Shown here piece after piece: positions 22,439-32,230 of a stretch of 32,230 bases of DNA. Under the pieces are notes generated by a model. It searched no databases. It saw only the letters and a program-made list of their open reading frames with translations, and had not been told where the DNA came from. Positions within the stretch are counted from its first letter, which is position 1. Every line of letters begins with the position of its first letter. The stretch is from Acidobacteriota bacterium (GTDB lineage: Bacteria; Acidobacteriota; Thermoanaerobaculia; Multivoradales; SZUA-115). Position numbers and translations under genes: made by a program. Location: NCBI GenBank assembly GCA_003231035.1, contig QIHU01000241.1, forward strand, positions 1-32,230. The letters are read 5' to 3'.

Positions 22439-24736
22439 ATGAGAATTATGAGATTTGGAGAGATAGGCAGAGTGTGGAACATCGCGTTGACTCACTGCCT
22501 GTGGCTAGCGATTCTGACCATGATGGCGGTGCCGGTGGTGGCACAGAAGGACGAAGCGGCAGCCGTCCCGGCGCAACCGTTGCGACACTTCGAGGTCACC
22601 CAGGCGAGTTCGCCGATCAAGATTGACGGCCTGCTCGACGAAGCGGCCTGGGAGACGGCGGTGGTCATCGATCTGCCCTATGAGTGGTTCCCGAGCGACA
22701 ACGGCACTCCGCCGGTGAGGACCGAGTCGTTGGTCACCTACGACCGCACCAATATTTACATCGCTTTTCGCGCCTTCGATCCGAATCCCGAGGAGATCCG
22801 GGCCCACTTGATGGACCGCGACGCGATCGGCCTCTTCATCCAAGACGATCATGTGGGCTTCACCCTCGATACTTTCAATGACGAACGGCGCGCCTTCCAC
22901 TTCCGGGTCAACCCTCTGGGGGTGCAGATCGACGCCGTCTTTTCAGAACGCACCGCGCGCGAGGACTACTCGGTCGACCTCATCTGGGACTCGGCCGGCC
23001 GGGTCCATGCCGAGGGGTACGTCGTCGAGGTGGCCATTCCGCTCAAGCAACTCCGCTTTTCTCGCAGCGACGAGGCGCAGACCTGGGGCTACGAGGCATT
23101 TCGTAGCTATCCACGCAGCGTTCGCCATCGGATTACCTCGCGTTTTACCGATCGTGAGAAGGACTGCCTGCTGTGTCAAGAGAATAAGATCAGCGGCTTC
23201 CAACAACTGAAGACCGGCAACAATCTTGAGATTACCCCCACCGTGACGGGGATCAGCACGGATAGCGTGGACACCTTTCCTGACGGCCGTCTTCAGAACG
23301 TCGTGGAGGACCTAGAGGCCGGTGTTTCGTTGCGTTGGGGGGTCACTCCGAACATCACCGTCAGCGCCACGGTCAATCCTGACTTTTCACAGGTCGAAGC
23401 CGATGTGGCGCAGCTCGATATCAACAACAGATTCGCCCTCTTCTTTCCCGAAAAGCGCCCCTTCTTCCTAGAAGGGTCGGACCTCTTTCAGACGCCTCTC
23501 AACGCGGTCTTTACCCGCACCGTGGCCAACCCCCGCTGGGGCACCAAGCTCTCCGCCAAGGAGGGTAAGAACACCTTGGGTCTCTTCGTCACCGACGATC
23601 GGATTACCAATATTCTGATTCCAGGCAACCAAGGTTCGAGCTTTGCCTTTCTGGACGATGATCTGACCACCGGTGTGGTCCACTACACCCGAGAGGTGGG
23701 GAAGTTCTCGGCGATTGGCCTGCTGTACACCGGGCGCGAGGGCGACGGCTATTTCAACCGTGTGGGCGGGATCGATGGTTTCTTGCGTTTCACCCCTTCC
23801 GACACCGTACGGGTTCAGTACCTGCGCTCGGATACGCTCTATCCCGTGGAGGTGGCGGACCGTTTCGGTCTGCCCACTGACCCTTTCGACGGCGACGCCT
23901 TCTCCGTGCGCTACGACCACTTCGCCAAACTTTGGAGGGGATTCGTGCGCTACGAGAATCTCGATCCAGAGTTCCGTGCCGATGCTGGCTTTATCCCGAG
24001 GGTCGATGTCAAGACTTCCGAGGTAGGTTACGAGCGTGTGGTCTATGGCGAGCAGGGCGACTGGTATGCACAAATGAGTTTCGGCGGTCGCGCCCTGCGG
24101 ACTGAGGATCACAGCGGTCTACTGACCGATGAGGAGATCGAAGTTTTCGGCATTTACCAAGGGCCGAAGCAGTCCTTCGTTCGGCTACAACTCTTCGACA
24201 ACCAGGAGTTCTTCGGCGGGGTGACCTACGACATTCAAAAGGCGCGGCTGTTTGGGCAGTTCACCCCCAGCGGCAACGTGCGCGCCTCGCTGGCGATTTG
24301 GTCGGGTGACGAGGTCGATTTCGCCAATGGCCGACCCGGCGATCAGGTCTTGATCAGTCCCAACGTGCTGATGCGTTTGGGACGTCACCTGTCGGTGGAA
24401 GTCGACTATCTGCGCCGGGAGCTCGACGTGGAGGGAGGGCGGCTGTTCACCGCCGAGCTAGCGCAAGCCAATATCATCTACAACTTCAACGTGCGCTCGT
24501 TCGTGCGTGGAATCTTCCAGTACCAGAAGATCGCTCGCGACCCGTCTCTGTACACCCGAACGGTGGTAGAGGAGAACAGCGACTTCTTCGTTCAATTCCT
24601 CTACTCCTACAAGATCAACCCACAGACCGTCCTCTTCGTTGGCTATACCGACACCCGCGCGGGGGTGGAGGACGTCTCTTTGCAGCAGACCGATCGCACC
24701 TTCTTCCTGAAACTGGGCTATGCCTTCCTCTACTGA
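22439..24736 (+). CDS. DUF5916-type outer-membrane protein with N-terminal CBM9-like domain
   Basis: Signal peptide (IALTHCLWLAILTMMAVPVVAQ); SPIKIDGLLDEAAWE and ESLVTYDRTNIYIAFRAFDPNP (CBM9-like); NPDFSQVEADVAQLDINNRFALFFPEKRPFFLEGSDLF signature; alternating beta-strand C-terminus ending LKLGYAFLY. Confidence 0.85.
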   Translation: MRIMRFGEIGRVWNIALTHCLWLAILTMMAVPVVAQKDEAAAVPAQPLRHFEVTQASSPIKIDGLLDEAAWETAVVIDLPYEWFPSDNGTPPVRTESLVTYDRTNIYIAFRAFDPNPEEIRAHLMDRDAIGLFIQDDHVGFTLDTFNDERRAFHFRVNPLGVQIDAVFSERTAREDYSVDLIWDSAGRVHAEGYVVEVAIPLKQLRFSRSDEAQTWGYEAFRSYPRSVRHRITSRFTDREKDCLLCQENKISGFQQLKTGNNLEITPTVTGISTDSVDTFPDGRLQNVVEDLEAGVSLRWGVTPNITVSATVNPDFSQVEADVAQLDINNRFALFFPEKRPFFLEGSDLFQTPLNAVFTRTVANPRWGTKLSAKEGKNTLGLFVTDDRITNILIPGNQGSSFAFLDDDLTTGVVHYTREVGKFSAIGLLYTGREGDGYFNRVGGIDGFLRFTPSDTVRVQYLRSDTLYPVEVADRFGLPTDPFDGDAFSVRYDHFAKLWRGFVRYENLDPEFRADAGFIPRVDVKTSEVGYERVVYGEQGDWYAQMSFGGRALRTEDHSGLLTDEEIEVFGIYQGPKQSFVRLQLFDNQEFFGGVTYDIQKARLFGQFTPSGNVRASLAIWSGDEVDFANGRPGDQVLISPNVLMRLGRHLSVEVDYLRRELDVEGGRLFTAELAQANIIYNFNVRSFVRGIFQYQKIARDPSLYTRTVVEENSDFFVQFLYSYKINPQTVLFVGYTDTRAGVEDVSLQQTDRTFFLKLGYAFLY

Positions 24737-24767
24737 GGCGGCGGCGCGACGGCACTGGAGACTGACG

Positions 24768-26441
24768 ATGAACAAACCCATCCTCGATTGCATTCTGGTT
24801 GGCCACAACGAAGGAAATTACCAAGACTTCGTCGAACGGCAACGGATGACCTCCTCGACGACTGGAGCCTACGGCGAGGTGATGACCAACTCGATCCTGT
24901 TCAAGGGGCGCAGGATCACCTACATGGACTTGATGAACTATGGCATTGGTCGGGCGACCGGACGACGGTCAAAACTATCGAGCTTCGGGCCGACCAACCT
25001 CGCTTCGTGCTATCTGCGGAACTTCCTGCGCGGTTGCGGTCTGTCGGCCGAGATCGTCAATACTTTTCAACCTCAGAAGGCTCTGCTCGAAGAGTTCCTC
25101 GACGAGCCGCATCGGGTGGTTGCGATCACCACGACCTTCTACGTCGAGCCAAGCCCCATTCAGGAGATCGTGCAGTTCGTGCGTGAGCGGAGCCCCCAGA
25201 CGACGATTGTGGTGGGTGGGCCGCATGTGTTCAATATCTGCGAGGGTAACGACGCCAAGACGCAGGACTTCATCTTCGAGACCATCGGCGCGGACATCTA
25301 TGTGCAGGAGTCGCAGGGAGAACTTACCCTGTCGAGGATTCTGATGGCTCTGCGTTCCTCGCGGGACCCGGACCTTTCGAAAATCGAAAACCTGATCTAT
25401 CGCGAAGATGGCGCCTATGTGCGCACCACCCGGTTGAGCGAAGAGAATGTGATGAATGAAAACTCGATCGACTGGAGCCAGTTCGATTCGAACTACCTGG
25501 AGCCGATGACGCTGACGCGCACGGCGCGAAGTTGCGCCTTTTCTTGCTCCTTCTGCAACTATCCGCGCATGGCGGGCGCGCTGAGTCTGACCGATATCGA
25601 TGTGGTTGAGCGCGAGTTGAGGCAACTGGAGGAGATCGGCGTGCGCTCGGTGCATTTCATCGACGACACCTTCAACGTGCCGATCCGGCGGTTCAAGGAG
25701 CTGCTGCGGATGATGATCCGCAACCGGTTCACTTTTCGCTGGATGTCCTTCCTGCGCGCCGGCAACGCCGACGCCGAGGCGATTGACCTGATGGCCGAGA
25801 GCAACTGCTTCGGCTCTCTGCTGGGAATCGAATCGGGAGATTCCCAGGTGCTGACAATGATGAACAAGAAGGCTACCATCGAGCTCTACGAACAGGGCAT
25901 CGCCAGACTCAAGACCAACGGCATTCTCGCTTACGGCATGTTCTTCATGGGATTTCCCGGGGAAACGCAGCAGACGGCGCGCAACACCTTCGAGTTTATT
26001 CAGCGCACCGCCCCCGATTTCTACATGACCGGACTCTGGTATCACGATACCTTGGCGCCGATTCACGAACGGGCCCAAGAGCTGGGGATTCGCGGCGCTG
26101 GCTATAACTGGAGTCACAAGACGATGAACTGGCGCGAGGCGGCGCAGTGGGTGCACTACATCTACAACAACATTGATCGATCGACGATCATGCCGCTGAC
26201 CGGTTTCAGCTTCGAGACCCTGCCCTACTTGCTCGGCCTCGGCATGCGGCTGGAAAAGATCAAGGAGTTCGCCCGTTTGGCGCACGGCATGTTGGTCGCC
26301 ACCCTGGACGACGAGCCGCAGGATTTCAGCCGCCAAGAGAGGGAATTGGTCCGCATCTGCGGTGAACTCTACGGCGACGATCTCGCCCACGTCGCCAAGG
26401 AGGCTCTGGCCACGGCGCCACCGATCGAGGTCGCGGTTTGA
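24768..26441 (+). CDS. B12-binding-domain radical SAM protein, PhpK-like family by eye
   Basis: CAFSCSFC (CxxxCxxC) cluster motif; Rossmann-like N-terminus with TTIVVGGPHVFNI; N-terminal LDCILVGHNEGNYQDFVER; ESGDSQVL and GMFFMGFPGET radical SAM core motifs. Confidence 0.85.
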   Translation: MNKPILDCILVGHNEGNYQDFVERQRMTSSTTGAYGEVMTNSILFKGRRITYMDLMNYGIGRATGRRSKLSSFGPTNLASCYLRNFLRGCGLSAEIVNTFQPQKALLEEFLDEPHRVVAITTTFYVEPSPIQEIVQFVRERSPQTTIVVGGPHVFNICEGNDAKTQDFIFETIGADIYVQESQGELTLSRILMALRSSRDPDLSKIENLIYREDGAYVRTTRLSEENVMNENSIDWSQFDSNYLEPMTLTRTARSCAFSCSFCNYPRMAGALSLTDIDVVERELRQLEEIGVRSVHFIDDTFNVPIRRFKELLRMMIRNRFTFRWMSFLRAGNADAEAIDLMAESNCFGSLLGIESGDSQVLTMMNKKATIELYEQGIARLKTNGILAYGMFFMGFPGETQQTARNTFEFIQRTAPDFYMTGLWYHDTLAPIHERAQELGIRGAGYNWSHKTMNWREAAQWVHYIYNNIDRSTIMPLTGFSFETLPYLLGLGMRLEKIKEFARLAHGMLVATLDDEPQDFSRQERELVRICGELYGDDLAHVAKEALATAPPIEVAV

Positions 26442-27727: not shown

Positions 27728-29482
27728 CTAGCCACAGATGGAGAACTTGTCGGAGCAACAATCGCCGAAGGAGGCGCAGGCGGAGTCGCACCAGCAGCCG
27801 CCCGGAGCCCGGCTGCCGCAGTTACCGGAGCAGGAGTTCGGGTTGCTCGGCGCTTCGCAGACGTCGACCCAGCTCAAGAAGCCGTAGTTGGGTCCGACGT
27901 TGCTAGCGCAAACCAGGCCGGTGTTGCACTGGGCGTCGCTATCGCAGTCGCCTTCGCCAGCGTCGCACTTGCAGCTATTGGTGCAGAAGCTGCCACCGCC
28001 GTTAGCGCCGACGTTGCAGCCGCCGGTCGCTGGATTGAGGTATTGCGAAACATTGGAGAAGTAGGCGGCGAGCGCGCCGTCGACAGTGGCCGCGCTACCG
28101 CAGGCGTTGCCGGGGTTCGAACCACAGGCGCCGGATAGTTGTCCGACCACCTGGCCGCTCGAGTTCAACACCGGCGAACCGCTGCTACCGCCTTCGGTGG
28201 CGCCGAAGTTCTTGCTTTGGTAAATTCGGTTGCCGCGAGTCCAGCCGGTGCAGGTGCCCACCGTGGTGTTGACGTTACTGGTCGAGTAGGACTGTGGGGC
28301 GCCCTTGGGGTGGTGGACTCGGAAGAGCGAGTTGCCATTGGAAAAGGCCACCGCGGCGGAGGTCCAACCGAGGAGGGTACTGCCGCTGGGAGCGGAGCCG
28401 TTGAGCCGCACAAAGGTGTAGTCGGCGGCGCTGCCGGTGGAAAGCAGGGTCGAACCGTTCACCGTGGGGACCGCCCCGCTGGGGTTGAAGCAGCTGCCAC
28501 CACACGAGGTGCTGAACTGAAAGAAGGCCTGCAAGCTGTTGGCCGAACTTGTGGTGCTGAAGCAATGGTTGGCGGTCAACAGGTAGGGGATGGTGGATGA
28601 ACCGTCGGTGTCGTTGAGTAGACCACCGCTACAAATGAAGGCGCTGGAGCCGACCACGAACTGCAAGTGCGCAACGGCGTTACGGGCGCCCTGAATCGCC
28701 GATGGAATCGACGAGCAGGAGGCGTTTTGAACGCAGCTAGCATTGAACGAGCAGAAGGCTTCGGGCAGGTTGGCGTTGTTGGGGTCGCGCATCACGCCGT
28801 AGAGGAAGCGCTCGCCGAGGTGGACGACGTCGGTGAGGTTGACCTTGGTGTTGTAGAGCGCGCGGAGGGCGTTGGGGCCGGTGTAGCGAATTTGCAGTCG
28901 CACTTCCTCGCCGACCAGCGTGTCCGACCAGAACTCACCGTGCTCGAAGATGCCGTTGCCGGTGTAGGGGCCGAAGGCTTCGCCGCCTTTGGAGTACACA
29001 AACATTTCGGCGCCCTTGGGAAGATCGGTGTCGGTAAAGTGGAGACGAACCGCTTTGGCGCCTTCGGAGCGGATCGTGGTGTACCAGGTGAACTCGGTGG
29101 GCTTGAGGCGCAGGATGCCGCCGGCCGGTCCGCGAACCGCGCGGCGGCCGAGGCGGATGTTGAGGTTGTCGAAACGGATGTTGGCGCTCAAGTCATTAGT
29201 CACCCCGACCAACAGCCGGCCTTGGGTTTGCGAGGCGCGCTCCATTCTTTCGAGATCTCCGATGGACGGCTTGACCCGCAGGCCGCGGGCTACTTCTCTG
29301 CCCTCCCGCGAAACCAGGCGCTCGCTCAACGCGGCGCGCTCGCTGGCGACCGCGATGGAGTCAAAGAGGCCAGGGATCTTTTCGGACTTCGTTTCACGAA
29401 CTTGAGCGCTGGCGGATAGGCTCATCATCAGGGCCAAGGCGGCAATACAAAGAGTGGGGGCCTTTGAACAATGTGGTGACAT
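27728..29482 (-). CDS. Secreted trypsin-like serine endopeptidase with C-terminal Cys-rich and somatomedin-B-like motif
   Basis: Signal peptide MSPHCSKAPTLCIAALALMMSLSASA; triad candidates TANHC, ADYTFVRL, GGSSGSPV; C-terminal CSGNCGSRAPGGCWCDSACASFGDCCSDKFSIC with 8 Cys. Confidence 0.88.
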   Translation of the reverse strand: MSPHCSKAPTLCIAALALMMSLSASAQVRETKSEKIPGLFDSIAVASERAALSERLVSREGREVARGLRVKPSIGDLERMERASQTQGRLLVGVTNDLSANIRFDNLNIRLGRRAVRGPAGGILRLKPTEFTWYTTIRSEGAKAVRLHFTDTDLPKGAEMFVYSKGGEAFGPYTGNGIFEHGEFWSDTLVGEEVRLQIRYTGPNALRALYNTKVNLTDVVHLGERFLYGVMRDPNNANLPEAFCSFNASCVQNASCSSIPSAIQGARNAVAHLQFVVGSSAFICSGGLLNDTDGSSTIPYLLTANHCFSTTSSANSLQAFFQFSTSCGGSCFNPSGAVPTVNGSTLLSTGSAADYTFVRLNGSAPSGSTLLGWTSAAVAFSNGNSLFRVHHPKGAPQSYSTSNVNTTVGTCTGWTRGNRIYQSKNFGATEGGSSGSPVLNSSGQVVGQLSGACGSNPGNACGSAATVDGALAAYFSNVSQYLNPATGGCNVGANGGGSFCTNSCKCDAGEGDCDSDAQCNTGLVCASNVGPNYGFLSWVDVCEAPSNPNSCSGNCGSRAPGGCWCDSACASFGDCCSDKFSICG

Positions 29483-29654: not shown

Positions 29655-29693
29655 GCTATGTAGCGTTGTGCAACTTGGTCTTGAAGTTTTTTT

Positions 29694-29711
29694 ACTGCGT
29701 CGACTGCGTCG
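29694..29711. repeat. 9-bp tandem repeat ACTGCGTCG x2 upstream of allantoinase
   Basis: ACTGCGTCG at 29694-29702 and 29703-29711, directly after a T7 run. Confidence 0.8.
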
Positions 29712-29779
29712 GCAGCGCGGGAAGGGACAATTTGCCAGATGAAGTTGTGGTACGACGGACGATGGGTGGAGGCTTTGGG

Positions 29780-31126
29780 GTGAGAGATCTGGTGATCATC
29801 AGCAGGCGAGTACTGACCGAGGACGGCTTGCGCCCGGCGGCGATCCACCTCGCCGAGGGCAAGATCCAGGCGATTAGCGATCTTGAGGCGGCTGGCGAAG
29901 GCCGCCGTCTCGATGTTGGTGAGGCGATGGTTTTTCCGGGGCTGGTCGACACCCATGTGCATGTCAACGAGCCGGGAAATACCGTTTGGGAAGGCTTCGA
30001 GACGGCCACCCGGGCGGCGGCGGCCGGCGGAGTGACGACCCTGGTCGACATGCCCCTCAACAGCCTACCGGTCACCACTAACCCCTCGGCGTTAGAGGCC
30101 AAGCAACGCCGAGCCGCTCGCCTAGCACGAGTCGACTACGGTTTCTGGGGTGGGCTCGTGCCGGGCAATCTGGATCAGCTGCAACCGCTCTTGGCAGGCG
30201 GAGTCCTCGGTTTCAAAGCTTTCTTGGTCGACTCCGGTCTAGCGGAATTTCCCTTGGTGACTGACGCCGATCTGCGCCCGGCGATGCACTGGCTCGCCGA
30301 GCACGATGTGCCCTTGCTGGTGCATGCTGAGGATCCCACGGTGATCGCTGGTGCGGCAGGCGCCGATTCGTCGCCGATGCATCGCTATGGCGACTATCTG
30401 GCCTCACGGCCCGACCAGGCGGAAGTGGTGGCCATCGAACGCATGATTCGGCTCTGCCGCGAGACCGGCTGTGCGGTACATGTCGTCCACTTAGCAACGG
30501 TGGAGGCCCTGCCCGCCTTGGCGCGGGCCCGTGCCGAGGGGCTGCCGATCACGGTCGAGAGTTGCCCGCATTACTTGACCTTCGCCGCCGAGGAGATCGC
30601 CAACGGGGCGACCCTCTTCAAGTGTGCGCCTCCCATTCGGAGCCGCGACAACCGCGAGGAGCTGTGGCGCGCCTTGCGCCAGGGGGAGATCGACCTGGTG
30701 GCGAGCGATCACTCGCCTTGTCCGCCTCCGCTCAAGCGGCAGGAGGAGGGCGACTTCCGAGCCGCCTGGGGGGGCATCGCCTCGCTCCAGTTGAACCTGC
30801 CCGCCGTGTGGACCGAGGCCTCGAAGCGAGGTGTGGCGATCGCGGAGCTAGGCCACTGGCTGTGCGCCGAGCCAGCCCGGCTGGCCGGCCTTCAAAGGCG
30901 CAAGGGGCGCATCGCACCCGGCTACGACGCCGATCTGGTGATCTGGGATCCCGACGCCACCTGGGTGGTGGAGGGAGCGGCGCTCGAACATCGTCACCCC
31001 ACCACCGCCTACGAGGGGCGCACTCTACGCGGCCGGGTGACGCAGACCCTGCTGCGCGGCGAGATCATCTTCGATCGCGGTAGCTTCCCCGGGGCAGCGA
31101 GCGGCCGCTGGCTGAGGCGGGGCTAG
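29780..31126 (+). CDS. allB: Allantoinase (dihydroorotase/amidohydrolase superfamily)
   Basis: FPGLVDTHVHVNEPG, AGGVTTLVDMPLNS, GFKAFLVDSG, LLVHAED, VHVVHLAT, ESCPHYLTF, VASDHSPCPP. GTG 29780 preceded by GGAGG (29768-29772); the frame is open upstream to 29666 and ATG 29762 is an alternative start. Confidence 0.88.
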   Translation: MRDLVIISRRVLTEDGLRPAAIHLAEGKIQAISDLEAAGEGRRLDVGEAMVFPGLVDTHVHVNEPGNTVWEGFETATRAAAAGGVTTLVDMPLNSLPVTTNPSALEAKQRRAARLARVDYGFWGGLVPGNLDQLQPLLAGGVLGFKAFLVDSGLAEFPLVTDADLRPAMHWLAEHDVPLLVHAEDPTVIAGAAGADSSPMHRYGDYLASRPDQAEVVAIERMIRLCRETGCAVHVVHLATVEALPALARARAEGLPITVESCPHYLTFAAEEIANGATLFKCAPPIRSRDNREELWRALRQGEIDLVASDHSPCPPPLKRQEEGDFRAAWGGIASLQLNLPAVWTEASKRGVAIAELGHWLCAEPARLAGLQRRKGRIAPGYDADLVIWDPDATWVVEGAALEHRHPTTAYEGRTLRGRVTQTLLRGEIIFDRGSFPGAASGRWLRRG

Positions 31127-31201: not shown

Positions 31202-32230
31202 ATGAGCGACCCCTCCCCTCCTGAATTCACCCATCTGGTCGATCTGGCCAACGAACGCGTCGGCGGCCGAACGCTGGCGGCAAGCGATGACTTTTTCGCC
31301 GAGAAAGAGAATCTTCTCAAGGCGAAGGCGGCGATTTTTCTGCCCGACGAATACACCGATCGTGGCAAGTGGATGGATGGCTGGGAGTCGCGCCGCAAGC
31401 GGGATCCCGGCCATGACTGGTGTGTGATCCAGCTCGGGGTTCCGGGCCGCATCCAGGGACTCAACGTCGCTACCCACCATTTCAGCGGCAACCACCCGGA
31501 AGCCTTCTCACTCGATGCCTTGGCCCTCTCGGGCGACGAGTCGCCAGAGGTCGCGGGGTTGGAGTCGCACTGGGCCGAGATCGTCGCTCGCACCGCATTG
31601 AACGGCGACAGCGACAACTATTGTGCGGTGGAGAGCGGCGAGCGCTTCACCCACCTGCGGTTGCACGTCTATCCCGACGGTGGGGTGGCGCGGCTGCGGG
31701 TCTACGGCGAAGTGGCGCCGGACTGGACCTCCCTGGCAGCACGGCCGCGGGTCGACTTGGTGGCGGTCGAAAACGGGGGCCGTGCGGTGGATTGCAGCGA
31801 CCGGTACTTCAGCGATCCGAGCAACTTGACCATGCCGGGCCGGTCCACCTACATGGGGGATGGCTGGGAAACGCGGCGGCGGCGGGGGCCGGGCCATGAC
31901 TGGTGCATTCTCTCCCTGGGCCATCGCGGCGTGGTGGAAGAGGCGGTGGTGGACACCCACCAGTGGTGGACACCCACCATTTCAAGGGCAATTTCCCGGA
32001 AAGCTGCGCTCTCGAAGGGTGCGACGCCGCGGGAGCCTCCAGCGAAGAACTCCTGGATGAGCATCGCCCTTGGACTCCGCTGGTGGAACGCACCACCTTG
32101 GGAGGCGACCAAGAACATCGGTTCGCGGTGACCGCAGGGCAGCCCTTGACCCATGTTCGCTTGCGGATCTTTCCTGACGGCGGGGTCAGCCGATTGCGGC
32201 TCTTGGGGCGAGCGGTGGGCAGGGAGACGG
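31202..32230 (+). pseudogene. alc: Allantoicase, two repeated domains, frameshifted in the second domain by a 17-bp tandem duplication; 3' end outside window
   Basis: MDGWESRRKRDPGHDWCVIQLG and MGDGWETRRRRGPGHDWCILSLG are the paired domain motifs. After 31962 the original frame becomes unrelated. Frame 1 from 31963 reads VVDTHHFKGNFPESCALEG...ERTTLGGDQEHRFAVTAGQPLTHVRLRIFPDGGVSRLRLLG to the window end. Confidence 0.88.
31946..31979. repeat. Exact 17-bp tandem duplication GTGGTGGACACCCACCA x2
   Basis: Copies at 31946-31962 and 31963-31979 are identical and directly adjacent, inside the allantoicase coding region. Confidence 0.97.

Follow-up and report, generated by a model that had tools for sequence, protein, structure and literature searches.

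An exact 17-bp tandem duplication breaks an allantoicase frame near a contig end of an Acidobacteriota draft genome: a possible assembly scar or young null allele

The ureide locus and its interrupted allantoicase

The window, that is the whole stretch of 32,230 nucleotides analysed here, is the complete contig C3 of an Acidobacteriota draft genome (G000), and its end is the end of the contig. Near this end lie two plus-strand genes of ureide degradation, an intact allantoinase (allB, 29666-31126) and, as its downstream neighbour, a frame-broken allantoicase (31202-32131). The final 91 bases of the window (32140-32230) recur unchanged at the start of contig C161, which carries, further downstream, an OHCU decarboxylase, a hydroxyisourate hydrolase and a DhnA/LsrF-type aldolase. 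The allantoicase sits in an ordinary urate-to-ureidoglycolate cluster. A classical uricase (PF01014) was found neither in G000 nor in a genome of the same genus (G001), and urate oxidation in both may be catalysed by another enzyme. Ureidoglycolate lyase (PF04115) was not found in G000, and as a backup route for allantoate only a relative of AllC scoring below the cut-off was detected, on contig C34. Our search for literature joining allantoicase, frameshift, pseudogene and bacteria found none.

The 17-bp unit GTGGTGGACACCCACCA, consisting of one G and a hairpin with a 6-bp stem and a 4-nt loop, occurs exactly twice, head to tail, on the plus strand (31946-31962 and 31963-31979). Tandem Repeats Finder reported a period of 17, 2.0 copies and a 100% match at 31946-31979, by far the strongest tandem repeat of the window; no adjacent 17-bp copies of this kind are expected in shuffled sequences, and a search of the 4.99 Mb draft genome that allowed up to one mismatch found the unit nowhere else. 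The matching run is exactly 34 bases long; the match goes no further on either side of the duplication. In 969 kb of the genome there are just two exact tandem duplications whose unit is at least 14 bases long and not a multiple of three, the other being an 80-bp unit in contig C309, and 1.06 Mb of sequence from a third-order Markov model contained none that long. The 17-bp duplication is therefore not a product of chance, and it stands in the deposited sequence, together with the frame break, as the sequence-only reading had first described it.

The 17 additional bases of the second copy shift the frame. The frame at 31202-32131 encodes 309 amino acids, comprising the first allantoicase repeat and the start of the second; it follows the family through the residues VVDTH and then continues for about 55 unrelated residues up to a stop. 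Its protein nevertheless scored 343.7 bits against TIGR02961 (cut-off 277.9) and matched PF03561 in two stretches, so that it shows the two repeats and the score above the curated cut-off that define the family, whereas a single uninterrupted frame over both repeats is absent from the window. Similarly, the solved allantoicase structures 1sg3 and 1o59 could be matched up to VDT (residue 252) and were out of frame thereafter. The rest of the second repeat (31963-32230, plus strand), corresponding to positions 66-154 of the Pfam Allantoicase model, lies in another frame that is open to the contig end and continues into C161, with a stop directly past the overlap. As had been claimed, this displaced stretch is allantoicase-like and open to the window end; it belongs, however, to the second repeat, and the earlier comparison had set it against the first repeat of the same protein.

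Relatives and other frame breaks in the genome

G001 contains an intact allantoicase of 338 amino acids with one copy at the site of the duplication, and a single frame across the site was also found in ten further relatives and at 80 loci from other genomes. All 91 relatives (G001 and 90 other allantoicase loci) thus have one intact frame across the site. A conserved in-frame insert was rejected as an explanation, since a sample alignment of intact relatives showed no insert and one frame throughout. A tandem repeat at the site was likewise detected neither in the congener, the sequence of which differs there, nor at the 90 other loci.

The part upstream of the duplication shares 79% amino acid identity with G001 (changes per codon position 0.17/0.09/0.41), and the out-of-frame tail shares 74% (0.15/0.15/0.47). 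As the tail is still conserved and its changes are in excess at third positions, the break is either recent or not real. The proposal that the event is recent is compatible with these data, as is an artefact.

Coding-like frames of 40 stretches of G001 were also compared with 102 stretches of G000. In about 83 kb of conserved coding sequence two clear breaks were observed, both exact duplications without a shared edge base. The second is an 11-bp unit, CTCTTCCTCTA, present twice at positions 2995-3016 of contig C409 (locus L190), which interrupts a DUF6526 gene that G001 has in one piece; the duplication lies about 3 kb from a contig end, and its unit forms no hairpin. The reverse comparison (80 kb) gave no clean case, only mirror images of these two and one doubtful match at a gene start. 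Two further frame breaks are found in a non-ribosomal peptide synthetase (NRPS) gene that spans contig C166 and the window (frames 1-618 and 530-2890). One is located at about position 527 of the window in an adenylation domain, where PF00501 is matched up to model position 254 in frame 1 and from 260 in frame 2; the other was read by eye from the translation of C166, about 350 bases from its end, in the linker past a condensation domain. Both look like short losses of sequence. Of these four breaks, three are no more than about 550 bases away from a contig end, a small sample that favours an error of the draft.

Three other candidates were rejected as breaks. Close to the start of C1, what seemed a break lies in noncoding, tRNA-like sequence that the congener shares; in C18, a 13-bp duplication falls right at the beginning of a stop-to-stop frame, whose Fe/Mn superoxide dismutase is intact; and a 10-bp duplication in C184 falls between two frames.

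Contig structure and the origin of the second copy

The first 91 bases of the window recur as an end of C166, and every end overlap found among 81 whole contigs, including that with C161, measures exactly 91 bases, which indicates a de Bruijn graph with k=91. The contigs are numbered by descending length, except that 54 of the 102 sampled contigs (C1-C21, C160-C200, C300-C319 and C400-C419) are longer than their rank allows. As no N characters occur in 969 kb, these contigs were apparently lengthened after they had been sorted by length. C3 is longer than C2 by exactly 17 bases, probably a coincidence.

From this structure of the assembly, the position of the duplication and the other frame breaks, an artefact is slightly ahead of a new null allele, and we assign a probability of about 0.5 to an assembly scar as the origin of the second copy. 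Two dead contig ends with a true overlap of only 17 bases could not be joined in a k=91 graph, as this overlap is shorter than 91 bases; if they were later placed end to end without collapsing it, an exact repeat would result, which could have any length, would share no base at its edges and would be single-copy in relatives. We infer such a join from an exact duplication that breaks a frame, single copies in the relatives, the k=91 structure and the position at a contig end. An overlap left uncollapsed in this way would mean that the allantoicase of the organism is probably intact. The two copies are 100% identical and end 251 bases before the contig end, and the run comprises exactly two units without a shared edge base, as would be expected of an overlap that was not collapsed. 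The only other clear break in 83 kb, that of C409, is of the same kind; that three of four frame-breaking duplications without shared edge bases are located on over-long contigs is uninformative. Against an assembly scar, exact duplications as a class show no significant excess at contig ends (5 of 40 lie within 600 bases of one, where 4.5 are expected), the copy in C409 is some 3 kb away from such an end, and the unit coincides with a perfect hairpin, something to be expected of a blind join only about once in 400-570 cases.

Errors of assembly that falsely duplicate sequence at contig boundaries have been documented (PMC8081667). The homotype duplications described there resemble the present case in that an exact second copy, absent from the real genome, lies at or near a contig boundary; they differ in being of read length and in coming from long-read vertebrate assemblies, whereas here 17 bases are concerned in a short-overlap de Bruijn draft, with a presumed join. 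We see no new kind of system at this locus. The main lesson is one of caution: a short exact duplication close to the end of a contig in a fragmented metagenome-assembled genome can look like a new null allele or a switch.

A real, recent null mutation that inactivates allantoicase in the dominant strain is a serious alternative to the assembly scar, with a chance somewhat below even. The locus resembles spontaneous null alleles of bacteria caused by short tandem duplications in its exact adjacent copies, a length not divisible by three, the broken frame and single-copy relatives; it differs from them in the missing shared edge bases and in the coincidence of the unit with a hairpin. Slippage duplications normally leave some shared bases at their edges, and classical slippage between pre-existing short repeats was rejected here because the run is exactly 34 bases long and edge microhomology is absent. 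This absence suits re-copying over a hairpin better: the growing strand might fold the 16-nt hairpin TGGTGG-ACAC-CCACCA, and a polymerase resuming one base upstream of its foot would re-copy 17 bases, giving a tandem duplication of the hairpin plus one base without microhomology. In agreement with this route, the unit is one G followed by a perfect edge-to-edge hairpin with a 6-bp stem, predicted to fold at -5.8 kcal/mol as DNA, while the site of G001 has no hairpin; 17-mers in which a stem of at least 6 pairs leaves no more than one base free at either edge occur once in 392 in the window and once in 570 in 20 other contigs. The conserved downstream frame would also be expected of a young null. 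On the other hand, the stability of the hairpin compared with shuffled sequences is weak (z -1.6), the duplication in C409 has none, and both the contig-end position and the further frame breaks of the assembly speak against a mutation. If real, the duplication would represent one recent loss of allantoicase within an otherwise intact ureide cluster.

A further reading is an artefact of library preparation or amplification: during PCR or cluster formation, templates might have been re-copied, or reads cut short, at the hairpin, and the duplicated path might then have been retained by the assembler. This would unite the coincidence of the hairpin with the contig-end position; we regard it as unlikely, as stems of 6 bp are ordinary and no hairpin accompanies the duplication in C409. 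It is still more doubtful that short tandem duplications of this exact, microhomology-free kind, such as the 17 bp at the hairpin and the 11 bp in C409, arise unusually often in the lineage, by hairpin re-copying or by fill-in of staggered breaks, so that it carries many young null alleles that revert easily. Slippage between adjacent direct repeats can delete one copy, and the sequence-only reading had offered a reversible switch (phase variation), with allantoicase off at two copies and on at one. The direct repeat inside a reading frame, with a unit that is not a multiple of three, recalls contingency loci, and a deletion between the two neighbouring, identical 17-mers would in principle lead back to a single copy; yet such loci carry arrays of several units in varying number, whereas here a single duplication of exactly 2.0 copies, without microhomology or evident copy-number variation, lies in the gene of a catabolic enzyme instead of a surface or restriction gene, and relatives lack the repeat and the congener also the hairpin of the unit, so that we rejected the switch as the least probable of these explanations.

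Other genes of the window

Beyond the ureide genes, a B12-binding radical SAM protein (24720-26441) comes after the large NRPS cluster (530-20976) and is near the PhpK P-methyltransferase family, with 587.5 bits against TIGR04479 (cut-off 600). A phosphinate product is doubtful, however, since no PEP mutase (PF13714) turned up in the draft genome. On the minus strand, a gene at 27728-29482 encodes a protein of 584 amino acids in which a trypsin-like domain is combined with a weak C-terminal match to Somatomedin B (below the cut-off), which is unusual in bacteria.
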